The position numbers and the translations under genes were made by a program. A stretch of DNA of 26,810 bases from a virus: the IMG/VR virus record IMGVR_UViG_3300022413_000035, positions 1 through 26,810 of that record. One strand, written 5' to 3'. Under the pieces are notes generated by a model, which was not told where the DNA came from, ran no database searches, and saw nothing but the letters and a program-made list of their open reading frames with translations. Positions 5,716 to 23,105 of this stretch are shown piece by piece; position 1 is the stretch's first letter, and each line of letters opens with the position of its first letter.

Positions 5716-8570
5716 CAGGAATACGCTGCAACGGTGCCGCTGACATTGCGAACGTCACCGCGCAATAGCTCGACTTGATAGAGTAATGCTTCGAGGAGGG
5801 TGTTCGAGGAACCGCCCGAAAATCCCTCAGTTGGATCTGACGGTCCCCCGGGAAGGTCACCGGGTTTTTCGCCGGTTGTCGTGTAGTTGGTATTTACGTT
5901 GATCTGAATATCTCGGGGAAGGCCGTTCAACGCATCGCCAAAAGCAGCCGCAAAGCGCTCGCCTTCCTCCATTCCGGGATTGGTTTCATCGCTCAGTATC
6001 CCGGCAAATGCCCGGATCTGATCTGCGGTACTATCAAATATTCCCCCCATGCGCTGACTTTCGCCCCCGAGCGCGTTCGTTGCAGACGACGTTCCGTCAA
6101 GGATTCCCTGCGCCGTTTGTAGAGTAACCCCATATATAGAAGCGACTTCCTTCGCCGTCACAACGCCATCGGCAAGTGCCCGAGTCTGTTGGTCAAGTCG
6201 CTGCGTGGCTTGCGTTGCGTTGTCAGCAGATACAGACAAAACCCTAAACTCGCCATTGACCTCGACCACCCGGGTCGCTGTCGCGCCGAATTCCTTACCC
6301 GCGCGTTGTAATGCACCAGTGACGCCGACTATTTCATTTCCAAATTCGTCATACCCTACAGTGATTACGGCTATGTCACTGCCCAAGGCGACGGCCTGTT
6401 CGCGCAGTGCTTCGATTTCCTCAGCCGTCCCCCGGAAGAACTCGTACCGTGATAGCGTTTGCTCTAGTTCATCGAACGCGCCGGTCATCGGCTCGGAAAA
6501 ATCGACTCGGCCGACGATATTAGCCCAAGTCGTGCGCAATATTTCATCGATCTGCGGCCCTTCCTTTTCGCCAAGTATCCGGATCGTCGTGGCGATTCCA
6601 ACGATCAGCGGTGCGTAGATTGCGCCACCTGCAGCGATTTTACCAAGCCCGACGCCGAACCCCTCGCCAGCGACTTGCCCGTAAATCTCATACGCCGTCT
6701 TGATTTTGCTGATCGTGTCGGTAATGTCGGAACCCCCGCCGCCACCACCGCCACCCGGAACCCCAGGAATCGGTATTTCAATATCCTTGAGTTCGCCGAG
6801 ATCCTCAAGCACCTCTTTGATCTGGCGATACCGTTCGATGACCTTCCCGAGTAGCGTGTCGGTCTTCACATATTTATCGATCAGATCAACCATATTTTCG
6901 ATCTGCGATTCTTCGCTACGGTTCTTCTCTTCGTGCGCTTCGGTGTATCCCTCGATGGTCTTTGTTGCCTTACGCGCCTCTGCCTGTTCTCGTTTCTGCT
7001 GGTCGACGTGCTTCTCGGTTGTGATGGTTGCTTCGGCAATCGCCTTGTCGACGTCCTTGTACGCATCCGCGAGTTCGCGCAACTCGCGCTGCAACTGTTT
7101 GGAACCTATTTCATTATCCTTGAACCGTTGCGTCAGCGCGTCAACGCGGTCGGCATATTCCTCAGCGCGTTCCGAATCGGTCTGAATCGCATCCGCCCAT
7201 TTCTCGGCCTCGGTGCGATCATCGATAACCGCTTGCGTTTGCTTACGCAGCGCGTCCGTCTTTTTCGGCATAATGACGCCGCCGAGATATGCCTCGTTCT
7301 GCGTCAACACTGCGATGGCCGCGGCGTGCTTGTCGAGTTCCCCCGTCGCCGCTACAACCGCTGCTGTATTGGTTTCGAGTTCAGCGGTTGTATCAGATAC
7401 GATTCGCGTGTATAGCTCCTGTTCACTTTGCAGCGCCCTTAGCTCGGCCTCATAGGCTGCCAGCTTTTGCCGTAGCCGCCCGTACCCCGCGTCGCCCTGA
7501 TCCTTCAGGATGCCGGTCAGCCTCTCTATTTCTATGCTAACCCGTTTCTGCTGCGCGTCGTTCTCGCGCAATGCCCGCGTATAGAACCCGATCTGACGCT
7601 GCGCTTCTGCGGCGTTCAGGCTTTCCAGCCCTTGCTTCGCCCGCACTAACGAGTCCACCCACTCCCCTGTTTTCGTTGTTGCTATAGCAACCTGCGTGGC
7701 GTAGTTCCGTATGGCGATTTCCGCACCGGTCGCGCCGCCAACCAGTATCGACAATCCATCCGCTAGGTCATTAGCTACCCTCCACGCGGAATCCATTGCC
7801 TCAATAACAATATCGAGCGCGGGTGCGAGTTGCTGTGTGAGGAAGTTTGCAACCCTCTCGATGGCCGGTGCGAGCTTTGCCAGTGCTCCGGTGATTAGGT
7901 TGCCGATGGCCTTGGTGAGTTTAGTCATTGCGTCGTTCGCCGCTTCCGACGCGCGCACCTGATCTTCCGTCATGATCGTAACAACCTCGCGTATCTCCCC
8001 TCGGAGGTCGTTAAACGCCACCTCGCCATCCTTGACCAGATTCGCCACCTTGATGCCCACTGTCCGGCCGAAGGCCGCAGCGGCCAGCGCCGCCCGTTCG
8101 GCAGGATCTTTTACGTTCGCAAGAGTTTTCAGGAATAGCTCTAACGCTTCCTCCGTGCTGTTGGTCGCTTTGAGCGAGTCCAACATTCCCGCATCGTACT
8201 TCCGCAGATGCGTGGTCAGCGCACCCGTACCGACTTGCGCCTCTCCTAAGCGCTTATTAAATGCACCCAGCGCCGAATCCATTTCCCCCTGAGAGATCGC
8301 GGCGAGTTCGCCAACCGCCGCGAGTTCCTGGTATGTCTCGACCGCGATGCCTGCCTGATCCGCACCCTTCCCGATCGCGTCCGCCGTATCCAAGGCGCGC
8401 TTCGTCATCAAGACTAACGCCGTGCCGGCAACCGCCATAGACGCAGCAATGACCTTTCCTACATCCCCCGCTTTCGTCGCCAGCCCGCCGAGCGAACGAT
8501 CAACCTCATCGAAGGCGCGCTTGGTCGCGTTCTTCGCGCTGATCTCTAGTTCGGCTTTATTTATTGGCAT
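5715..8570 (-). CDS. Tape measure protein
   Basis: At 951 residues this is the longest product in the window, and it directly follows the frameshifted chaperone gene, the standard place for a tape measure. The N-terminus (MPINKAELEISAKNATKRAFDEVDRSL) and the next hydrophobic stretch (IAASMAVAGTALVLM) are typical of phage tape measures. Long helical, heptad-like regions run through about residues 320-590. A glycine run (PGVPGGGGGGGG) at about 600 separates them from a hydrophobic patch near 635-660 (possible membrane segment) and a helical, more variable C-terminus. It sets tail length and is ejected to help DNA cross the membrane. Length would predict a tail of roughly 140 nm at about 1.5 angstrom per residue, from known practice in other phages. 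Confidence 0.95.
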   Translation of the reverse strand: MPINKAELEISAKNATKRAFDEVDRSLGGLATKAGDVGKVIAASMAVAGTALVLMTKRALDTADAIGKGADQAGIAVETYQELAAVGELAAISQGEMDSALGAFNKRLGEAQVGTGALTTHLRKYDAGMLDSLKATNSTEEALELFLKTLANVKDPAERAALAAAAFGRTVGIKVANLVKDGEVAFNDLRGEIREVVTIMTEDQVRASEAANDAMTKLTKAIGNLITGALAKLAPAIERVANFLTQQLAPALDIVIEAMDSAWRVANDLADGLSILVGGATGAEIAIRNYATQVAIATTKTGEWVDSLVRAKQGLESLNAAEAQRQIGFYTRALRENDAQQKRVSIEIERLTGILKDQGDAGYGRLRQKLAAYEAELRALQSEQELYTRIVSDTTAELETNTAAVVAATGELDKHAAAIAVLTQNEAYLGGVIMPKKTDALRKQTQAVIDDRTEAEKWADAIQTDSERAEEYADRVDALTQRFKDNEIGSKQLQRELRELADAYKDVDKAIAEATITTEKHVDQQKREQAEARKATKTIEGYTEAHEEKNRSEESQIENMVDLIDKYVKTDTLLGKVIERYRQIKEVLEDLGELKDIEIPIPGVPGGGGGGGGSDITDTISKIKTAYEIYGQVAGEGFGVGLGKIAAGGAIYAPLIVGIATTIRILGEKEGPQIDEILRTTWANIVGRVDFSEPMTGAFDELEQTLSRYEFFRGTAEEIEALREQAVALGSDIAVITVGYDEFGNEIVGVTGALQRAGKEFGATATRVVEVNGEFRVLSVSADNATQATQRLDQQTRALADGVVTAKEVASIYGVTLQTAQGILDGTSSATNALGGESQRMGGIFDSTADQIRAFAGILSDETNPGMEEGERFAAAFGDALNGLPRDIQINVNTNYTTTGEKPGDLPGGPSDPTEGFSGGSSNTLLEALLYQVELLRGDVRNVSGTVAAYS

Positions 8571-8576
8571 CGCGGG

Positions 8577-9106
8577 CTATCGTCCCCGGCGTCGTGCGGA
8601 TTCTTGTTCTTCGGCCTGCATATTCAGATACACAATCCATCCGGTGTATTCGTCAACGGTCATGTCATCGATCTGCGCGAGCGCCAGATTCAATCGGTCG
8701 GCGAGATAGTATCGCTCCCACTCGAATCCGCGCTCTCTGATTTTTTTTCGACTGACCTGACGTTGCCACTCAACGCGGGCGCCAGTTCCGTCGACAATCG
8801 GATCACGACCTCGGAATCGGCCTCATCGGACATCAACCAATCAACATCCGATTGACCGTTAAATACGCGCCGACCCTTTTCGTCCAGCGCGCACTCAACA
8901 ACAATCTGCGCCAGCGAGTGAATATCGCCTTCCTGCTGCAACCGAAATATCTTGAGCTTGGACCGCATGTTGATGACGCCGTAATATAGCGTACACCCCC
9001 ACTCCGGAACCTCAACCGGCGTCAGGCCCCGTTCTTCGCGTACTTTCTCCGCGTGTTCCTTGATCTTGTTTTTCAGGTCAGCGCGACCCGGTGACAGTTG
9101 CGCCAT
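8577..9106 (-). CDS. Tail assembly chaperone, long -1 frameshift product (gpGT-like)
   Basis: The 138-residue chaperone frame contains GAA AAA AAA at 8749-8741, with the heptamer A AAA AAA in phase for a -1 slip. After the slip the new frame stays open for 54 codons (IRERGFEWERYYLADRL at the start, MTVDEYTGWIVYLNMQ in the middle) and ends with TAG at 8579-8577, seven bases before the tape measure ATG. The fusion would be about 176 residues (122 + 54). The extension has no start codon of its own with a good site, as expected for gpT. In lambda and many long-tailed phages this G/GT pair binds the tape measure and tail tube during assembly. The frameshift is predicted, not observed. Confidence 0.85.
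8690..9106 (-). CDS. Tail assembly chaperone, short form (gpG-like)
   Basis: This 138-residue protein starts MAQLSPGRADLKNKIKEHAEKV and has an alpha/beta body with a conserved-looking EWGCTLYYGVINMRSKLK segment. Its hydrophilic Ser/Asp-rich tail is typical of the short chaperone made without frameshifting. It lies between the tail tube and tape measure genes. The upstream region has GGAGGGAACT before the ATG. Its 3' end holds the slippery A run from which a longer product is predicted. It is not expected in the finished virion. Function is assigned from position and architecture; the sequence itself would not prove it. Confidence 0.85.
   Translation of the reverse strand: MAQLSPGRADLKNKIKEHAEKVREERGLTPVEVPEWGCTLYYGVINMRSKLKIFRLQQEGDIHSLAQIVVECALDEKGRRVFNGQSDVDWLMSDEADSEVVIRLSTELAPALSGNVRSVEKKSESADSSGSDTISPTD
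8741..8747 (-). promoter_or_regulatory. -1 ribosomal frameshift slippery site
   Basis: The heptamer A AAA AAA (with eight consecutive A residues at 8748-8741) is correctly phased within GAA AAA AAA of the chaperone gene. The -1 frame is open to 8577. The usual gpG/gpT arrangement upstream of the tape measure supports use of this site. Confidence 0.85.
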
Positions 9107-9136
9107 AGTTCCCTCCAGCCTTTCAGCCCGTTGTGA

Positions 9137-9523
9137 TTAAACCGTATTTTCAGTTATCGCAGACGATCCGACCCAGCCGAACGCGACCGACACCATGTCC
9201 CCGCGATCCTGCGCGATTCCGCGCGATGTGATATTCGCGGTGACTTCGTAGTACGTGTCCGTGCTCACGTCGCCGTCCGGATACATCTGGAGCGTGATCT
9301 GCGCGCCCAACGACATCGCATCTTGCGCGGTATCCGCCGGGTCCAGTAACGCATCGATCGTTCCCGAGTTCGACGGGATGCCGACACGTTGATCCGCAAA
9401 CGTCTCGCCGCATACCCCCGCGTCGATCGTCGGGGCGGTTTCCTCGAATCCCCACGAGCGCAGATTGATTACGTCATTCGCGCCCACTTTCACGACGCCG
9501 TTTTTTCCGTTCAGCTTTGCCAT
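9137..9523 (-). CDS. Major tail tube protein
   Basis: This 128-residue beta-rich protein starts MAKLNGKNGVVKVGANDV. Strands alternate through YYEVTANITSRGIAQDRGDMVSVAFGWVGSS, the pattern of short tail tube proteins that stack as hexamers around the tail lumen. It sits between the tail terminator module and the chaperone genes, as in lambda-like phages. GGGAG lies six bases before the ATG, a strong site for a highly made protein. A GC hairpin at 9571-9588 lies upstream and could stabilise or punctuate its message. It is shorter than lambda gpV and lacks an extra Ig-like domain. Confidence 0.8.
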   Translation of the reverse strand: MAKLNGKNGVVKVGANDVINLRSWGFEETAPTIDAGVCGETFADQRVGIPSNSGTIDALLDPADTAQDAMSLGAQITLQMYPDGDVSTDTYYEVTANITSRGIAQDRGDMVSVAFGWVGSSAITENTV

Positions 9524-9570
9524 CTTCGTCTCCCGCCGGGTAAACCCCGATCTCGTATTAAATAAATGAA

Positions 9571-9588
9571 GGGCGCCCGAAGGCGCCC
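9571..9588 (-). terminator. GC-rich hairpin upstream of tail tube gene
   Basis: The 7-base stem GGGCGCC/GGCGCCC closes a TTCG tetraloop on the minus strand and is followed by the T-rich TTCATTTATTTAAT. It could be a partial terminator or a processing and stability element. The sequence is nearly the same as the hairpin at 12448-12471, and both sit just upstream of an abundant structural gene. Confidence 0.55.
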
Positions 9589-9620
9589 CTCAGCCTCGCC
9601 GGCTTATGCCGATCTTCTCG

Positions 9621-9800
9621 TTATTCCTCGCCCGCCGCGACTTCCTGTGCAACTACCGCAGCCTTCGGCGGCGGATACTTCTGCTTGACCTCCCAGCCTT
9701 GCGCCTCCAGTTGCGGCACGGAGTACGCTTCCACCCATACCTCTGTCCAGCCCTTCCTGCCCTCTCTCGTCATACACCAACGCTTACCACGATCTATCAT
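9621..9800 (-). CDS. Small basic-to-acidic protein between tail terminator and tail tube
   Basis: An open frame of 59 codons starts at an ATG at 9800 that overlaps the stop of the tail terminator gene as ATGA, and ends in TAA at 9621. The product starts MIDRGKRWCMTREGRKGWTE. It continues VWVEAYSVPQLEAQGWEVKQ, a short strand-helix pattern, then a Pro/Ala tail ending AAGEE. The upstream region reads CAGGGGTAGTAGC. Its 4-base overlap and unbroken frame make it more likely a gene than a chance frame. It fills the space between two tail genes, but I do not recognise it. Similar short proteins with a WxxVP core occur near phage tail tube genes; the role is unknown. Confidence 0.75.
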   Translation of the reverse strand: MIDRGKRWCMTREGRKGWTEVWVEAYSVPQLEAQGWEVKQKYPPPKAAVVAQEVAAGEE

Positions 9801-10243
9801 GCTACTACCCCTGTTGGATCTCTCAGACTGTACGATGTAATCAGGCGATACCGGATCTCCCGCGTTCCGATTTGCACCTGCCCTTCGTCTTCTAATTCGT
9901 CATCCGTAACGCCGGCCCACTCCACGGACGACGCCAAGCCATTCAGTTTCGGTTCGCCCGCCATCGCCGTTTGCACTTCCGACTGGATCGTATCGAGCGT
10001 GTTGACTAGGCTCGTACCCGACGCACGCGCCATAATCACTAGCACCATGTCGACGGTCATGTGATCGTCATCGGTGAGCGTTTCCTCGACAGGCTCTTCA
10101 GTTTCGATCTTCAATGCCAGCGCCGGCAGGTCCACGACGTCATACGGCAACACCCGCGACGCCGTGACGCTGGTGCCGGTCGTCGTGAGCCCGGTCAATA
10201 TCTGGGCGACGCGATCCCGGATCTGCTGGCGGACGTGACTCAT
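9797..10243 (-). CDS. Tail terminator protein (gpU-like)
   Basis: This 148-residue protein begins MSHVRQQIRDRVAQILTGLT. Hydrophobic strand segments such as LPALALKIETEEP, DMVLVIMAR and TREIRYRLITSYS follow, the pattern of minor tail proteins that cap the tail tube and meet the head connector (lambda gpU family and its relatives). It lies between the FII-like joining protein and the tail tube. Its ATG overlaps the upstream stop as ATGA. Length is slightly above lambda gpU (131 residues). The function is inferred from fold pattern and synteny. Confidence 0.75.
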   Translation of the reverse strand: MSHVRQQIRDRVAQILTGLTTTGTSVTASRVLPYDVVDLPALALKIETEEPVEETLTDDDHMTVDMVLVIMARASGTSLVNTLDTIQSEVQTAMAGEPKLNGLASSVEWAGVTDDELEDEGQVQIGTREIRYRLITSYSLRDPTGVVA

Positions 10244-10533
10244 TCGTGCAATACCAAAGTGACCGTTTCGCCATCGTCGATGCGTTGCTTGTCGATAATG
10301 GAATACGTGGTCCCATCAACGACCATCGACCCACCACGCGGATTCCCGGACACGTCCGATTCGGCGCAGCGAAACGTGACCGCGTAAGTGCTGGTCCCGT
10401 TCACGTCTATCCAATCTAGGCCCAGTATCCCGTTAACCGTGCTCGATGTGGACGCGCTCGGCGCGGTGTATGTCCCGGCAGTGCCGAAGTCGTCCGTATC
10501 GAAATAGACGCCCAGATCCTCAGACAGCGGCAT
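10240..10533 (-). CDS. Head-tail joining protein (gpFII-like)
   Basis: The 97-residue product starts MPLSEDLGVYFDTDDFGTAGTY, close to the usual start of FII-type head-tail attachment proteins. The rest is mostly beta (TYAVTFRCAES, TTYSIIDKQRIDDGETVTLVL), matching a small beta-barrel connector. It would sit beneath the portal complex and form the interface to the tail. Its ATG lies inside the end of the upstream AT-hook-like gene by 14 bases, and its stop overlaps the next start as ATGA. The length fits the family (lambda FII is 117). Confidence 0.75.
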   Translation of the reverse strand: MPLSEDLGVYFDTDDFGTAGTYTAPSASTSSTVNGILGLDWIDVNGTSTYAVTFRCAESDVSGNPRGGSMVVDGTTYSIIDKQRIDDGETVTLVLHE

Positions 10534-10717
10534 CTGCTTTCTTCTTCGGCCGGCCGCGTTTCTTGACCACCTCGCAGATCCCCATCTTCAACCACCGATC
10601 GCGCAACTCCGGGCGCGGATTCCTGATCGCACCCAACGGATGCCCCGGCAATCCTTTGATAATCCTCACCGCGGGCCAGGTCGGGCCACTCTCGCGGGTC
10701 GCATAATTCGTGATCAT
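10520..10717 (-). CDS. Small basic protein with AT-hook-like C-terminus
   Basis: This product of about 65 residues (MITNYATRESGPTWPAVRIIKGLPGHPLGAI and on) ends with VVKKRGRPKKKADAAV. RGRP flanked by lysines is the core of the AT-hook, which binds the minor groove of AT-rich DNA. The ATG at 10717 has GAGGGGG at a better distance than the ATG at 10723. Both frames overlap the neighbours slightly, as is normal here. Short proteins of this size often lie between decoration and head-tail joining genes in phages, where they may act in DNA retention or head completion. DNA binding is inferred from a short motif only. Confidence 0.7.
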   Translation of the reverse strand: MITNYATRESGPTWPAVRIIKGLPGHPLGAIRNPRPELRDRWLKMGICEVVKKRGRPKKKADAAV

Positions 10718-11898
10718 ATCCATACCCCCTCGGGCTTTCCGGATTTCTCAAATTCGCTCGGATGTTGATACATCGCCTGGAAGTTCTTGCTAGGCCAGCG
10801 CACCATCAATTCCGCATGTCCTATTGTGACGTGATTCGCCAGGTATAAGGTCTTACCGTATTCGCGCCACTTGCGCCAAAACGAAATATCATCATCAATG
10901 CGCCCATCGCCCCACTTCCCCCCGTCGCCCGGATGACTCCAGAACCACGGATTAGGAATGTCACGCAGCGCCGACGCCCGAATCAACGTCAGCCCGAAAT
11001 GCGCCGTCGTCACCTTCGTGATTTCCGGATGAAACGCATCGATCGGCGCCGAGCGCATCGGCATCCCCTCTTCATCGCACATCGTCATCAGCGGCGTCGC
11101 CTTGGTACGGTGCGCCTGAATCGGGACAAGCGCGTCTGCGTCCGTATCCCGCGCCAACTCCAGCAGATCACGTAACGCATCTTGCGTGAATACGGAATCA
11201 TAATCCGCCGTCAGGATCCACTCGCGCCCCTCATCGAGGCACGTCTGCATACCGTGTTCCAGGCATTGACCCCAGAACGCGCCGGTCAATTTCTTGAACG
11301 GTATGCCCATCGGCGCCAGCGCCCGGAACATGCAGAAGAAGTTATCCATGAACCCCAGGCGCGGCACACTCATCACGCACGATACATTCAGCGCCTTGAC
11401 GTCTTCCTTGGTCAACGGCCGCCGCTTGATCCCCTCCAGGTTCAACGAGATCGCGTAACTCGAACAGTCCGGCGCATCCGATTCCCATTTGCAGATCGAC
11501 CGCAGCCCCGCCGCGCGCATCAGATCCCGCAACGAATCCATATCGAATATCGCTTTGTGAAAGTCGCGCTCGTCCACCTGCCCGCCCATCACAAACCCCT
11601 CGGTCGGCATCTGCACACCGGACAGGTACGCCCGACTGATCGCCTCGAAGTCCGGTACCGCGATCTTGAGCTTTCCTCCGGGCTTCAATGCCCGCACCCA
11701 ATCGGCCAGCACATCCGGAATCTCCCGATGCCCGAAATGCTCCAGTATGTGCGAAGCGCGGATCTCGTCTACCGAGCCCTCTTGATAGAGTACCATCCCA
11801 TCCGGCGCGAGCAGCGGATATATTTCGTCTCCGCGCTTACCGTCAAGGTTTACATACCCGTCCAGTAACAGATCGCCACAGCCCAGATTCAACCGCAT
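10714..11898 (-). CDS. SAM methyltransferase-glycosyltransferase fusion
   Basis: This 394-residue protein has two clear parts. Residues 1-160 are a class I SAM-dependent methyltransferase-like domain: LNLGCGD at 3-9 (motif I), SHILEHF at 49-55 and LKPGGKLKIAVPDFE at 71-85. Residues about 170-385 look like a GT-A glycosyltransferase: a Rossmann-like start (NVSCVMSVPRLG), ILTADYDSVF with a DxD at 232-234, and an acidic DGRIDDD followed by an HAEL...WP end. The ATG at 11898 is chosen because GAGGG lies seven bases upstream; a TTG at 11925 is weaker. It sits in the head operon between decoration-like and AT-hook genes. It may add a methylated sugar to capsid or tail protein, or alter host surface glycans. 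The acceptor is unknown. Confidence 0.85.
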   Translation of the reverse strand: MRLNLGCGDLLLDGYVNLDGKRGDEIYPLLAPDGMVLYQEGSVDEIRASHILEHFGHREIPDVLADWVRALKPGGKLKIAVPDFEAISRAYLSGVQMPTEGFVMGGQVDERDFHKAIFDMDSLRDLMRAAGLRSICKWESDAPDCSSYAISLNLEGIKRRPLTKEDVKALNVSCVMSVPRLGFMDNFFCMFRALAPMGIPFKKLTGAFWGQCLEHGMQTCLDEGREWILTADYDSVFTQDALRDLLELARDTDADALVPIQAHRTKATPLMTMCDEEGMPMRSAPIDAFHPEITKVTTAHFGLTLIRASALRDIPNPWFWSHPGDGGKWGDGRIDDDISFWRKWREYGKTLYLANHVTIGHAELMVRWPSKNFQAMYQHPSEFEKSGKPEGVWI

Positions 11899-11990
11899 AT
11901 CTTTCCCTCTTGGTCCCTCTTGCAAGGACGCGGCAACGGAGAGAGGGAGTCCCCGCGTTCGGGGTCACCCCCTAGCCGCGCCCATGCCCG

Positions 11991-12422
11991 TTATCCGCTG
12001 GTGACGCCCTTCATGTCGCCCGCCGCGGTATCACCCGGCGCTTCGTCCCCGACGTACAGGTTCGCAACGGCCGCGATGACCTGAGTAGTCGTCGGCGAAA
12101 CACTCGTCTTGATATAGCGTTTCCGGCCGCGCAGGTCGACGTTGAACTTGTACGCCCAGTCGCCGCTGGTGACCGCATTCGGAATCGTGAACGCGGTGTC
12201 ACCCACAAACGCGGTGATGTCCGCGAAGTTCGTCACAACCGTATCGTCGGACTCGGACAGTTTCAGTACCGACGGATTGTTCGACGTGCTGTCACTGGTG
12301 GACATAAACACGTCCAGCGTCATCGCGTCGAAGCCGAGAGTATCGACGTTGCCGGACGCGGTGGCCGCATTGGTAAAGGATGCAGGCGTGATCGCCACGT
12401 CGCATTTAAAGGAAGGTCTCAT
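11991..12422 (-). CDS. Head decoration-like protein
   Basis: The 143-residue protein (MRPSFKCDVAITPASFTNAAT at the start) is beta-rich, with Thr/Ser/Val repeats and no hydrophobic helix. It contains AYKFNVDLRGRKRYIKTSVSPTT, a strand-loop-strand pattern typical of phage head-stabilising or decoration proteins. It directly follows the capsid gene, as decoration genes often do, and has AGGAG about eight bases before the ATG. A GC hairpin at 12448-12471 lies between the two. The short length matches lambda gpD-sized decoration proteins (about 110). Function is by position and composition. Confidence 0.65.
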   Translation of the reverse strand: MRPSFKCDVAITPASFTNAATASGNVDTLGFDAMTLDVFMSTSDSTSNNPSVLKLSESDDTVVTNFADITAFVGDTAFTIPNAVTSGDWAYKFNVDLRGRKRYIKTSVSPTTTQVIAAVANLYVGDEAPGDTAAGDMKGVTSG

Positions 12423-12489: not shown

Positions 12490-14448
12490 TTAGCTGGTGT
12501 TGCCAGTTAATGCGACAACCGGTCCCGCGTTCGTTGCGTCGCCCACGTCATGCACCACAATATCGAATCGCGTGGTCCCGAGAATCGCCAGCTGGTCGTA
12601 TTCGGCATAACGCTCGGTCAACACTCGCGCACTGAATCCGCGCCGATCGCCCATCGTTGCCGCCAGCGGGAAGTTACCGTACAGCATAACCACGACTTCA
12701 TCGTATGCGGTAGCCGCTGCCGGCATCGCCTGCGAGACCACGATCCGGTCGCCGAGATACGAGTCGGTCAGTTGCCCGCCGAGCATCACCTGCGTATTGC
12801 CACCGGCCGCCCGGGTAATCCCGTCGAACACGATATTCTTCGCGATCTTCGAGCACAACCAGTTCGCACCACCGCCACGGACCGCCGCATACAGCGGCAA
12901 AGTACCGCGCACCGTATCCAGATCGGCCGCGATGTACTCCGCCCACTGATCGTCGCCAGCCGTCGCCTCGATCGTGCCAGCCAGGCTCTCGGAGACCTTC
13001 AGCCGATCCCGAAACCCACGGATACCACCATACGTGCTAGTGCCGTCGCCATCGATCATGCACTGATCTTCCTTCAGCGCGAAGGAATAGGCGAACTCTT
13101 CGGCGAGATCCGACGCGACGTCGATGATCGCATCCTCGGCGTAGTCGGTGCTGAAACGAGTCAGGCACCCCATCTTGCGTGCCACAAGGTTCACGTCGTC
13201 CCAGGACTTGTCCGACTCGGTGATCGCGGTCAGTTCGTCCACGAAATAAGCGGTCACGCCGCCAGCACGTCGCGGAACGGTCAGGGTATCACTTCCCATC
13301 GTGACCACCCTCAGGAGCTGCCGCGCCACACCGTACTCTTCACGCAGATCGATGATGGCGTTCTCCATCTCCGTCGGCACCAATGCGCCGCCCTTCGTGA
13401 ACACCGATTCAGTCATCACGCGCATACCGTGCTCACCGCACCACGTCGCCGCCTTGCGGTCCCCGAGAAACATCGCACGCGCCCACTTTCCGGCACGGTA
13501 AGCATCCTCCTCGGAACGGAATCCACGCAACTTGCCGGTGTACTTTTCACGCACATCGACATACGGCACCGTCTGCGGCAACGGCTTGGCGTTGTTACGC
13601 TTGGCGAGGATCTGCTTGCACAGGTCATCCTCACTACCGCCCAACTCGATCACCTCCCGCGCCAATTCCGGCTCGCCGAATTTTTCACCGATCAAGCGGA
13701 TCTCTTCGACTTCCTCGGCACGCTTCACGGCCGCCTCGGCCGCTTCGAGTCGCGCCTTGCTATTATCATCCCCGGACACTTGATCGTCCACCGTCACCGT
13801 CACCGTCTCGGTGCCTTCCGCCCGCTCGTCTACCTCGGGCTTGCCTTTCTCTTTTAACATTGCAGTCCCCTGCTTGTTGTTGTGATCTCGCCCGACACCG
13901 ACGCTTGCATCCGCCGGCACGGCTACGAATGACACCTCAAGCGGCTCCCAATCCGTGATCCGGATCTGGTCAACACCTTCGGCCCTTCCCTCAACTTCTT
14001 TCCACGCGCGAATGGAATACCCAACGCTGATCTTGCTGCGTATCCCGTCCAACACATCCTGGAATATCTCTTGCGCGCGATCGCTCTTACTGAATCGCAC
14101 AGTCGCACGCCCCTTACCGCCCTCGACCCAGGCGCGCTCCACACGTCCGATCTGATCGCGGCCATTGTGATCCATGAGCAGCGCCGCCCCGTCATTCATG
14201 CGTGACAAGTCTGGCGTGCTCTTATCATGCGCGAGCACTTCGTCCCACACATCCCCGAAGAACTGCCGACGGATCGGCTCATCGCTCGAAAAGGCGATGT
14301 CTACCGTGCGCGTTTCCTCTTCGACGTGCTCGCGCTTAATCGACGCCTCACGATACTGCGTGGTACTCGCGTTCAGATAACCGGTACGGTCGGCGTGCTT
14401 CGTCGGGTCGACTTCACGGTCCCGCCTCATCATTCCCATCAAGTTCAT
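12490..14448 (-). CDS. Fused prohead protease and major capsid protein (HK97-like)
   Basis: This 652-residue protein joins three stages of the capsid pathway. Residues about 20-200 match HK97-type prohead protease (peptidase family U35), with a likely catalytic His94 in LLMDHN and Ser141 in SKISVGYS, then EPLEVSFVAVPADASV. Residues about 210-295 are charged and helical (KARLEAAEAAVKRAEEVEEIRL), like the delta or scaffold domain. The rest is the major capsid protein, with RGFRSEEDAYRAG, GGALVPTEMENAIIDLREEYG and a long coat domain ending VVALTGNTS. The ATG at 14448 has AGGAGAG about six bases upstream, so the 38 Arg-rich codons upstream (to 14562) are not used. Processing is expected to release the scaffold and protease. 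It overlaps the portal gene by 35 bases. Confidence 0.93.
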   Translation of the reverse strand: MNLMGMMRRDREVDPTKHADRTGYLNASTTQYREASIKREHVEEETRTVDIAFSSDEPIRRQFFGDVWDEVLAHDKSTPDLSRMNDGAALLMDHNGRDQIGRVERAWVEGGKGRATVRFSKSDRAQEIFQDVLDGIRSKISVGYSIRAWKEVEGRAEGVDQIRITDWEPLEVSFVAVPADASVGVGRDHNNKQGTAMLKEKGKPEVDERAEGTETVTVTVDDQVSGDDNSKARLEAAEAAVKRAEEVEEIRLIGEKFGEPELAREVIELGGSEDDLCKQILAKRNNAKPLPQTVPYVDVREKYTGKLRGFRSEEDAYRAGKWARAMFLGDRKAATWCGEHGMRVMTESVFTKGGALVPTEMENAIIDLREEYGVARQLLRVVTMGSDTLTVPRRAGGVTAYFVDELTAITESDKSWDDVNLVARKMGCLTRFSTDYAEDAIIDVASDLAEEFAYSFALKEDQCMIDGDGTSTYGGIRGFRDRLKVSESLAGTIEATAGDDQWAEYIAADLDTVRGTLPLYAAVRGGGANWLCSKIAKNIVFDGITRAAGGNTQVMLGGQLTDSYLGDRIVVSQAMPAAATAYDEVVVMLYGNFPLAATMGDRRGFSARVLTERYAEYDQLAILGTTRFDIVVHDVGDATNAGPVVALTGNTS

Positions 14449-15925
14449 CGGGCTCTCCTGTCGGTTGTTCTTGTTGTCCCACCATCGGCGCAATGCCCAG
14501 CGCTTCCATCGTCTCCTTCTCGGACGCGATCTCCGCAAATACTTCCTCGGGATCGCGGCCATCTTCGCGGATCATGTCGGACACCGAACGCGTCCGCAGA
14601 CCGTAGTCCATGCCCCGCGCTTGTGATTCCTTCAACGGATCAACCCACGCCCAACGCCGCGGCTGCCACACCACGCGCCGGAAGTCATCGATCCGACCAC
14701 GCGGCAACGGCTTTCCGCCTGCGTCCGTGATCGCATTACTAGCCAGCGCATAAAACAGCCAGTCGTTGTAGATCCGCTCACAGAATGATTCAACGAACCA
14801 GTCCTGAACCAGCATCCACACGTCGCGCTCGGTGAGCATCCCATGACGTAGAGACGTGTAGTTCACGCCCTCCAGGTCATTCGCCAAGGTGTTGTAGTTC
14901 ACGCCCAGGCCCGACGCGATCGAGCGCAGACACGCCCGCACGAAATCACTGTAGGCCGCGTTCGGATGGTCAGGATTCCACCCCGAAAAGTTCCACCCTT
15001 CCGGCAGTATCTCAAACTCGCCAGGGCGCGCATCCTGTATCGGATTGCCGGCCGCGTCCGCGGCGTCCCCAACGTACTTTCCGGCCCCGACTTCGCGTTC
15101 GTAAAATCCCATCTTCGCCGCGCCGATGCGCGATGCCGTCACTTCCGCGTCTTCGTACCCGCGCAGCATGTGCAACCGCAACATCGCCGTCGCAAGCCAC
15201 GGTGCGCCGCGCGTCTGATACGCAAACTCGGGCATGTACATGTGGTACATTTCATCGGCCGGCACCCGGAATCGTTCGCTGGTCGATACGACGTAGGCCC
15301 CGCGGTTCACGTCACGATCATCTTCGAGAAAGTGATACCCGACCGGACGGCGCCATGGATCGAGCTCCACGCCCATCACGATCACGCGCCCGTCTTTCAA
15401 ATCTTTGTTGTAGGACACATCGAGCCGCGCCGGGTCCATCATCTGCAAGGTGAACCCGAATCCATTGTCCCACGTCACCCGGCGCCATAGTGCCTCACCG
15501 TCGCGCGCCACCGTCTCGATCGCCTCGCGCTGAATCCCCTTCCATGACCGCGTGCCAGTCACGTCTGCCGATCCACGCTTGCCCCACTTTGTCCACGCTT
15601 CCTCGATGGCACTGTTGGCCCTGGCGTCCTGTTCGCCATTTATGCGGCGACGCACCCGGCCCTGCAACCGCACCCCATGCGGCCCGACCACATTCGTTCG
15701 CACTAACCGCAGAAAGTGCCGGACGTGATCGTTATTCTGTGCCTCGACCCGCGCGCGCGCGCGTAGTGTTTCAAGTCCGTGGCGTAGGTCGTAATCGATC
15801 GTCGTACCAGTACGCAACCAGTCCGCCGTAGTCAACGACGATTTCGCCGACTTCCACTCGCGCTTCGCCGGCAGCGTCAGCACCTGGCGAGTCGGGCGCC
15901 GCTTCTTGTAGGTGACTTCAACCAT
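14414..15925 (-). CDS. Portal protein (lambda gpB-like)
   Basis: This 503-residue product carries the lambda-type portal pattern. LETLRARARVEAQNNDHVRHFLRLVRTNVVGPHG is near residue 60, followed by WTKWGKRG, a central domain (VARDGEALWRRVTWDNGFGFTLQMMDPARLD) and GVNYNTLANDLEGVNYTSLRHGML in the wing. The portal is the dodecamer at one capsid vertex through which DNA is packed. The start is uncertain: the ATG at 15925 overlaps the upstream stop by eight bases and would give MVEVTYKKRRPTRQ, but lacks a clear ribosome binding site, and further in-frame ATGs exist upstream to 16012. The C-terminus overlaps the capsid gene, implying coupling. Confidence 0.92.
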   Translation of the reverse strand: MVEVTYKKRRPTRQVLTLPAKREWKSAKSSLTTADWLRTGTTIDYDLRHGLETLRARARVEAQNNDHVRHFLRLVRTNVVGPHGVRLQGRVRRRINGEQDARANSAIEEAWTKWGKRGSADVTGTRSWKGIQREAIETVARDGEALWRRVTWDNGFGFTLQMMDPARLDVSYNKDLKDGRVIVMGVELDPWRRPVGYHFLEDDRDVNRGAYVVSTSERFRVPADEMYHMYMPEFAYQTRGAPWLATAMLRLHMLRGYEDAEVTASRIGAAKMGFYEREVGAGKYVGDAADAAGNPIQDARPGEFEILPEGWNFSGWNPDHPNAAYSDFVRACLRSIASGLGVNYNTLANDLEGVNYTSLRHGMLTERDVWMLVQDWFVESFCERIYNDWLFYALASNAITDAGGKPLPRGRIDDFRRVVWQPRRWAWVDPLKESQARGMDYGLRTRSVSDMIREDGRDPEEVFAEIASEKETMEALGIAPMVGQQEQPTGEPDELDGNDEAGP

Positions 15926-21354: not shown

Positions 21355-23105
21355 TATCCTTCACCCCATAGTCCGGTTATTGAGAAACTTGTTTTATGGA
21401 CCCCTTCGAGGTCCGATTGTATTTGATACACACCATCCGCTGATCGCGCGATGTTGAATATCCCTTCGAGCGTAATTAAAACCGCCTGTATCTCTGCGAA
21501 AATGACCGCGTTTGCGGTGACCCCGATACTCTCCAGCGTCGCAACGATCGCCTTGTGCAGTGCGATAGCCGCCTGCTGCGATGTGATCCCAAGGCTTTCG
21601 GCCAGCGCGAGAACCACCTTATTCAGCCGCACGGTGGCACCCTGCGCGCTAACGCCGATCGTCTCCAGGACCGCTTGTATCTGAATCGCCGCATTCACGG
21701 TGGCCTGGTATTCGGTGATCGTCAGGCTTTCCAGCACCGTCGAGACGGTCTTGCTCTTCGTGATCGTGCCACCGGACGTCGTAACGTCAAGCGATTCCAG
21801 GGCGGCGGATAAGACCTTCGCCAGCGTCACCGCACATACCGCAGACGTCACCGCTATCGTTTCCAATGACGTCGTAACCGCCACGTTGCGCGTGATGTCC
21901 GCCTGCGATTCTGTGACCGCGACCGATTCCAGCGCAGCGTTGATCAACGTGTTATCGCCTGTCGTGACCGTCGCGATGCTTTCCGTCACTGTGATCGATT
22001 CCAGCGCCGCCACAATCTGCTTCGCCAACGTCTGCGTCGCCGCAGATTCCGTAACCGCGATCGATTCCACGGCAGCGGATACAATCTTCGATAGATCCTG
22101 ATCGACGCCGAAAGTCGAGACACCGATGCTCTCTAATAATGCCGCGACCGACTTGCTCAGGCCCGGGGTAGACTGGCCCCCGGTCACGCCGATGCTCTCC
22201 AGCACCGCTACGACCGCCTTGCTCAGTGTTTGCGTAGCCGCGCTTTCCGTCACGGTGATCGACTCAAGCCCCGCGTTAATCAGTGTGTTATCGCCAGTCG
22301 TGACCGTCGCCAGCGATTCCGTGATCGCGATCGACTCAAGCGCCCCATCAACCGACTTGCTAAGGGTAACGGTGACCGCGCTTTCTGTAACCGCAATCGA
22401 CTCGATCGAGCCCGAGACCAGCTTGTTTAGATTCTGATCCGCTGCGCTCTCGGTGACCGCCAGCGACTCAAGCGCCGCATTGATGATCATATTGGCTAGG
22501 ACCGTGGCCGCGCTTTCCGTCACGGCGATGCTTTCCAGCGCGCCGGATACCGCCTTGTTTAGATTCTGATCGGCTTGGATAGCTGTAACCGCGACCGATT
22601 CCAGGACCGCCGATACCACCTTGCCGAGCCTCTGAACCGATGCGTTTCCGGTGACTAACAACGATTCTAGGGCGGCGGATACTAGCTTGCCGAGCCTCTG
22701 ATCTGCCGCGTTCCCCGTAACTGCAATCGATTCCAGGGCGCCGCTGATCAACGTCTTGGCGTTGACCCCGGCCGGTAATTCAGAAACCGCGACTGATTCT
22801 AGGTTGCCGCTGATCAGCGTCTTGGCGTTGATGTCAGCCGCCGCCTCCGTCACGGCGACGCTTTCCAACGTACCGGATACCAGTTTATTCAGATTCTGGT
22901 CAGTCTGTAATTCAGTAACTGCAATCGATTCCAGGGCGCCGCTGACCATCTTTTGAATGTTGATCGTAGTGGCGAAGGTCGTAACGTCTAGACTCTCCAG
23001 GTTGCCACTGATCGATATGTCGCCCCCGACGGGAGGCCACATAGGCGCAGCAAGTCCTTTCCCCGCCCAGGGGATAAAGGACGGTCTACGCCACGTATGC
23101 CTCAC
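21354..23105 (-). CDS. 22-residue-repeat protein, putative fibre or beta-solenoid
   Basis: This 583-residue protein is mostly about 23 imperfect repeats of 22 residues (two of them 24), from about residue 33 to 545. A typical unit is SGALESIAVTESAADQNLNKLV, with conserved LES(I/V/L)xVT and a hydrophobic position near the end. The regular length suggests a beta-solenoid or stacked-strand fibre. The first 28 residues are distinct (RPSFIPWAGKGL), and the last 35 (LEGIFNIARSADGVYQIQSD and on) form a different C-terminal tip. Two copies of the 24-residue variant (TGDNTLINA) lie five units apart, as expected from segment duplication. It may extend from the virion to bind hosts or other virions. A GTG start at 23105 is used; an ATG at 23042 is the alternative. 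Confidence 0.8.
   Translation of the reverse strand: MRHTWRRPSFIPWAGKGLAAPMWPPVGGDISISGNLESLDVTTFATTINIQKMVSGALESIAVTELQTDQNLNKLVSGTLESVAVTEAAADINAKTLISGNLESVAVSELPAGVNAKTLISGALESIAVTGNAADQRLGKLVSAALESLLVTGNASVQRLGKVVSAVLESVAVTAIQADQNLNKAVSGALESIAVTESAATVLANMIINAALESLAVTESAADQNLNKLVSGSIESIAVTESAVTVTLSKSVDGALESIAITESLATVTTGDNTLINAGLESITVTESAATQTLSKAVVAVLESIGVTGGQSTPGLSKSVAALLESIGVSTFGVDQDLSKIVSAAVESIAVTESAATQTLAKQIVAALESITVTESIATVTTGDNTLINAALESVAVTESQADITRNVAVTTSLETIAVTSAVCAVTLAKVLSAALESLDVTTSGGTITKSKTVSTVLESLTITEYQATVNAAIQIQAVLETIGVSAQGATVRLNKVVLALAESLGITSQQAAIALHKAIVATLESIGVTANAVIFAEIQAVLITLEGIFNIARSADGVYQIQSDLEGVHKTSFSITGLWGEG
21420..23010 (-). repeat. Tandem ~66-base coding repeats
   Basis: About 23 diverged 66-base units (two of 72) make up most of the 583-residue gene. 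Codons differ while the residues LESI(A)VTES stay the same, so selection acts on the protein. Some adjacent units (for example the two RLGK units and the two NAKTLI units) are more alike, suggesting local duplication. The copies offer substrate for slippage or recombination that changes fibre length. Confidence 0.8.

Follow-up and report, generated by a model that had tools for sequence, protein, structure and literature searches.

What does an enzyme that joins a methyltransferase (MT) and a glycosyltransferase (GT) do in the middle of a phage head operon? The question is raised by a gene in an IMG/VR virus record of 26.8 kb, hereafter called the window, which is the whole stretch of DNA (26,810 nucleotides) that we analyzed. 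An earlier note, made from the sequence alone, had placed such a fusion at 10714-11898, between the decoration-like and the head-joining genes.

An MT-GT fusion gene in the head operon

We found that the gene is real, is encoded on the minus strand and has exactly the coordinates given in that note. The open reading frame starts with ATG at 11898 and stops at 10716-10714, with an in-frame TTG at 11925. The motif LNLGCG was located at residues 3-8, and DYD at residues 232-234, where it had been reported. The gene does lie between a decoration-like gene (phrog_5707) upstream and the head closure gene Hc1 downstream, with a short ORF of 67 aa intervening before the latter. The features of the locus, with their basis in parentheses, are as follows.

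10240..10533, minus strand: head closure protein Hc1 (phrog_82), the downstream border of the slot that MT-GT occupies (PHROG)
10520..10723, minus strand: 67-aa ORF with a 10-nt overlap with the end of MT-GT, ATGGATATGA (ORF list)
10714..11898, minus strand: MT-GT fusion gene, P0001, 394 aa (ORF, profiles, AlphaFold model)
10717..11403, minus strand: predicted GT-A glycosyltransferase domain, C-terminal, residues 166-394 (VIA-align; profile relatives)
10816..10821, minus strand: GH, residues 360-361, with a candidate metal-binding histidine (conservation)
10888..10896, minus strand: DDD, residues 335-337, a candidate catalytic base in which D335 and D337 are invariant (conservation)
10993..11001, minus strand: HFG, residues 300-302, invariant, with a putative role on the acceptor side (conservation)
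11197..11205, minus strand: DYD, residues 232-234, the DxD metal/nucleotide-sugar motif (invariant in 43/43 aligned sequences, present in 130/130 relatives)
11419..11898, minus strand: predicted class I SAM-methyltransferase domain, N-terminal, residues 1-160 (PHROG match at 5e-8; fold matches)
11875..11892, minus strand: SAM motif I LNLGCG, residues 3-8 (sequence; retention in fused relatives)
11991..12422, minus strand: decoration-like protein (phrog_5707, a PHROG entry without a function label), candidate acceptor (PHROG, model)
12490..14562, minus strand: major capsid protein with a fused protease-like part; the other candidate acceptor (PHROG, relatives)

All head and tail genes recognized in the window share the minus strand. 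They follow each other in the order small and large terminase, portal, capsid with its protease-like part, phrog_5707 and MT-GT, and then the 67-aa ORF, head closure Hc1, tail terminator, tail tube, chaperone and tape measure. The 67-aa ORF is possibly translationally coupled to the MT-GT gene. A recent foreign origin of MT-GT was considered and is not indicated, since its base composition (GC 0.57-0.59, GC3 0.71-0.74) is similar to that of the adjacent head genes.

Three further genes of the window, all on the minus strand, were recorded. Upstream of the terminase genes, 21357-23105 encodes a 583-aa protein with many short repeats resembling LESIAVTESAA and no convincing family match. A 324-aa protein (683-1654) has no PHROG match and by eye resembles a sugar hydrolase of the TIM-barrel type, with a C-terminal part rich in Pro and Gly. 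Near the contig end, 26106-26795 encodes an incomplete cytosine-C5 DNA methylase.

Both halves of the protein are predicted to be transferases

We then asked what fold and family evidence says about the two halves. A PHROG methyltransferase profile matched the protein weakly, at 5e-8. The Pfam matches were also weak (GT2 at 6e-4 and Methyltransf_23 at 8e-4) and both fell below the Pfam cut-offs; for GT2 (PF00535), the score was 20.1 bits against a curated cut-off of 23.3. Sequence searches of the PDB gave no useful match. We aligned the window protein with 42 relatives, and in this 43-sequence alignment Methyltransf_11 was matched by 21 members and GT2, at E<=1e-3, by 4.

The same alignment was used to build an AlphaFold2 model of MT-GT (pLDDT 93.3), which was searched for similar folds. 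VIA-align identified a GT-A fold over model residues ~165-380, and GT-A enzymes filled nearly all of the top 50 rows of this search. The top structural match of the GT half was STIV A197 (PDB 2c0n; Z 17.9 over 161 aligned residues), and further matches included LH3 (Z 17.8), Mimivirus R699 (16.9) and COLGALT1 (14.7). COLGALT1 and LH3 are protein glycosyltransferases. For the N-terminal half, Foldseek gave matches to class I MTs, including 3e23, 1vlm and 3cc8; because the VIA-align rows span only model residues 134-379, the assignment of this half is based on the Foldseek rows together with the sequence profiles.

Twenty residues were found to be invariant in the alignment, including S177, P179, R180, D232, Y233, D234, H300, F301, G302, D335, D337 and H361. 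This invariance across the 43 sequences rules out chance as an explanation for MT-GT. The motifs DYD, HFG and GHx[EQ] were present in all of 130 GT relatives. By its modeled fold, the DxD motif and the further acidic and histidine residues, the C-terminal half is classed as GT-A, and the N-terminal half is classed as a class I MT by its modeled Rossmann-like fold and glycine-rich motif I; both activities are predicted. The view that an MT and a GT are joined in one chain is thus supported by modeled fold and by motif, and the fold search of the two halves pointed to a transferase in each.

Relatives are common in uncultured viruses

The earlier note had also held that this combination is not a standard part of lambda-like head modules. 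Among phage records this proved correct: tblastn of four family members against all 50,697 of them gave no match at E<=0.01, and in S-LBS1, which heads the list of phage records for the capsid protein, no GT is annotated behind the capsid gene. The statement did not carry over to the uncultured clade of the window phage, where a gene of the MT-GT type is common. A direct search of viral contigs with the single window protein gave no match. Relatives were found via the neighboring capsid protein, then by a phmmer scan of the capsid surroundings, and then with a GT profile (A3).

With this profile, we found at least 569 viral contigs encoding the GT. Eight loci were detected among 84,980 bacterial and archaeal genomes, all of which adjoin a phage capsid gene. 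One of the eight, L165, is a prophage integrated into an alphaproteobacterial contig. In the translated ORFs of L165 and its flanks L170 and L171, pheS/pheT and lepA lie at one end, and a repressor and a tyrosine integrase, followed by bacterial genes, lie at the other. The GT-bearing phage group therefore includes temperate phages. Two diverged GT copies were observed in L100 (5047-6426 and 7494-8687) and in L089 (1607-3208 and 7183-7953), the second copy lying further downstream among head-tail genes in both. A literature search found no paper describing the MT-GT family or its head-operon slot; the family, its fixed head-operon position and the recurrent fusion of MT and GT are new here.

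The GT gene keeps its place behind the capsid and decoration-like genes

We analyzed the surroundings of the GT in loci selected by the GT alone (L082-L168), counting those with at least 500 nt upstream. The capsid gene and the phrog_5707 homologue were each found upstream of the GT in 76 of the 78 loci, the latter with a median gap of 12.5 nt. After near-copies were removed, the phrog_5707 homologue was upstream in 52 of 54 loci (43 of them with a gap of <500 nt) and the capsid gene in 53 of 54. The reverse, independent sample was selected by the capsid protein and comprised loci that extend for 2.5 kb or more downstream. Here, the decoration-gene homologue was present in 49 of 51 loci and the GT in 34 of 51 (28 of 37 non-redundant), so the GT is common and not obligatory; 9 of the 37 non-redundant phages lack it, so this head type does not depend on the GT. 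Both samples consist of the best 80 matches of each scan, and closer kin are therefore over-represented in these counts. The order of capsid, decoration-like gene and (MT)GT was near-constant across diverse phages.

The decoration-like protein was examined as a candidate acceptor. It is predicted to be an eight-strand jelly roll (pLDDT 88.7). Its model showed a modest similarity to the BPP-1 cement protein (3j4u_H; Z 8.0, rmsd 3.3, 113 aligned) and also matched the Carin1 capsid chain 8cjz_A (Z 7.1). Generic jelly rolls score as high as these two chains, so that a decoration role is likely. The alignment of the decoration proteins was too divergent for profile scanning. We also compared their Ser/Thr/Asn content, which was 28% in GT-positive and 24% in GT-negative phages; as a mark of glycosylated lineages, this measure was dropped because it is too confounded by kinship.

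The methyltransferase domain is swapped, decayed or absent

In 65 non-redundant GTs, the MT was of the window type (type A) in 26 cases and of type B, which is Methyltransf_9/CmoB-like, in 14; 15 GTs were stand-alone, 5 carried a decayed type A domain, and 5 were other or truncated. On a quick GT tree, type B formed one clade, type A required 8 changes and the state without an MT required 5. By sequence comparison, the GT is constant while the MT is swapped between two unrelated types, decayed or absent. SAM motif I was retained in 59 of 61 fused type-A relatives. In the decayed MTs, motif I and SHxLEH were both gone and the GT motifs were intact. The lineages with a decayed MT or none show that methylation is dispensable. 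In one lineage (L117, L122, L125-L130 and L163), the SAM motif of the fused MT is gone, yet the domain persists at the N terminus of the GT, perhaps now in a structural or acceptor-binding role. In L088, a single ORF holds both types A and B, and the GT is encoded by a separate ORF behind it.

Further genes found in the slot

To characterize the slot, we also looked at what other genes it holds. In L233, which lacks the window-type GT, it contains a fusion of Methyltransf_24 (3e-21) with another GT (Anp1 1e-7, GT2 0.003) at 7248-8522. L185, which also lacks the window-type GT, has the reverse order at 7519-8973, with a GT-like part (by eye) preceding Methyltransf_24 (2e-15). Two further proteins are unrelated to the window GT: an MT with a second part without family assignment in L003 (3372-4772), and a slot enzyme after the capsid and decoration genes in L205 (7407-8180).

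Sugar-modifying genes were found in some GT-positive loci. In the GT-positive L006, the stretch between the decoration gene and MT-GT (7577-10100) encodes a sulfotransferase (8e-15), a nucleotidyltransferase resembling HldE/Fkp and possibly an extra GT. This nucleotidyltransferase and an enzyme of L148 are cytidylyltransferase-like, of the heptose/fucose type and close to HldE/fucose-1-phosphate guanylyltransferase. A GDP-mannose 4,6-dehydratase gene was located in or beside the slot in L112 (2e-113) and also in L116. The FkbM-like ORFs of L086, L131 and part of L167 were, like the extra GT of L006, recognized by eye and had no Pfam match; those of L086 and L131, the two scanned against NCBIfam, had no match there either.

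We see an even chance that this large uncultured tailed-phage group has a dedicated capsid-glycan slot immediately behind the decoration gene, repeatedly filled by fusions of GT and MT (from unrelated domains and in both orders) and by some sugar-nucleotide and sulfation genes. Such a slot would give a lineage-specific head glycan coat, methylated and in places probably sulfated, like bacterial serotypes.

Proposed function and alternatives

The domains and folds, the conserved active-site residues, the gene order, the swapping of MTs and the sugar-modifying genes in the slot were computed, and from them we infer the catalytic activity and the acceptor of MT-GT. Its position, its co-inheritance, the glycan-pathway genes in the slot and the recurrent fusion of MT to GT suggest that a methylated-sugar glycan is built on the head. 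We propose, with a probability of about 0.7, that MT-GT is a bifunctional late enzyme that adds a methylated sugar to the phage's own shell, most likely to the decoration-like protein, or else to the major capsid protein. The GT-A domain would use an activated sugar supplied by the host or, in some relatives, sugar nucleotides made by the phage, and would transfer the sugar metal-dependently via DYD and the conserved Asp and His residues. The acceptor would be a shell protein of the same operon, most probably the jelly-roll decoration-like protein, with the major capsid protein as the second choice. Using SAM, the fused class I MT would then O-methylate this sugar, or a precursor of it, and so cap the glycan. 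We infer late expression, the order of the two reactions and the sugar identity; the benefit to the phage could be altered surface chemistry, protection or attachment.

The earlier note had suggested that the phage decorates its own capsid or tail, or masks a host surface. The capsid option gained support from the near-fixed gene order and from the sugar-nucleotide and sulfation genes in the slot. The tail and host-surface options gained nothing, as the protein has no membrane segment and is linked to head genes.

It is unlikely that MT-GT modifies a host surface glycan, as gtr clusters do in seroconversion or superinfection exclusion, with its head-operon location being incidental. O-antigen-altering phage GTs are common, and polysaccharide clusters contain GT2-like folds as well as methyltransferases. 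However, the features of a gtr-type O-antigen cluster were absent: MT-GT has no membrane-like hydrophobic stretch (best 19-residue mean 1.1), and there is no flippase or anchor partner among its neighbors in the window. In addition, across very diverse phages the gene stays with those for the decoration and capsid proteins, which a surface modifier need not do.

Slightly less probable again is that the GT glycosylates a shell protein while the MT methylates protein (side chains of capsid, decoration or tail) and not the sugar. The class I MT fold does not fix the substrate, and different MT families are joined to the same GT. Nevertheless, the fused MT of PBCV-1 A064R acts on the sugar added by its GTs, the MT is lost or decayed in several relatives while the GT persists, and sugar-modifying genes accumulate in the slot. 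Glycosylation of DNA does occur in phages, and part of a cytosine-C5 DNA methylase is encoded at the window end, but it is very improbable that the enzyme puts sugar and methyl groups on phage DNA bases, given that T4 DNA glucosyltransferases have a GT-B fold whereas the GT half here is modeled as GT-A, that the MT half matches small-molecule-type MTs and not DNA MTs, and that the gene has head genes on both sides and is inherited together with the decoration gene. These three alternatives are each less well supported than a methylated head glycan.

If such a glycan is made, many uncultured phages encode a dedicated virion-glycosylation enzyme that has a fixed place in the head operon and is fused to a methyltransferase. 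To our knowledge, virion glycosylation has been documented in just a handful of cultured phages. The proposal predicts that the capsid or decoration protein is heavier by a methylated sugar, and, if true, it would raise the question of which role a methylated or sulfated coat plays for bacterial viruses in soil and water.

Comparison with known systems

We compared MT-GT with known enzymes and systems, among which STIV A197, mycobacteriophage virion glycosylation and PBCV-1 A064R serve as precedents for the proposed function. The GT-A fold of the window GT is common to COLGALT1, LH3 and Mimivirus R699 (Z 14 to 18; 10-19% identity), where the LH3 match spans LH3 residues 293-517 and may not be its catalytic domain; a fold common to the window GT and collagen GTs does not fix the acceptor. 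STIV A197 is an essential viral GT, and STIV has a glycosylated major capsid protein (PMC10551542). A197 has 15% identity to the window GT and differs from it in being stand-alone, without an MT.

The mycobacteriophages Che8 and Corndog are described as encoding GTs with which they glycosylate the capsid and tail tube of their own virions (Freeman et al. 2023, as cited in PMC11600133 and PMC12363180). As in the window, the GT gene of such systems is linked to structural genes. Cluster O mycobacteriophages are described in PMC11600133 as having an O-methyltransferase gene just upstream of three GT genes, which act on capsid and tail tube. There, MT and GT are encoded by separate genes, whereas in the window they form one chain. 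No sequence kinship of the window family to the known mycobacteriophage GTs was found (tblastn of four members against 50,697 phage records, E<=0.01).

PBCV-1 A064R is a GT-GT-MT chain that completes the glycan on the major capsid protein, its MT adding a 2-O-methyl to rhamnose (PMC9614988). In domain make-up, the MT of A064R is C-terminal and comes after two GT domains, whereas the window protein has an N-terminal MT and one GT. A064R belongs to an algal virus and acts on an N-glycan of a double-jelly-roll capsid, whereas the window represents a tailed phage with an HK97-type capsid. The two are alike in that GT and class I SAM-MT domains are joined in one viral chain.
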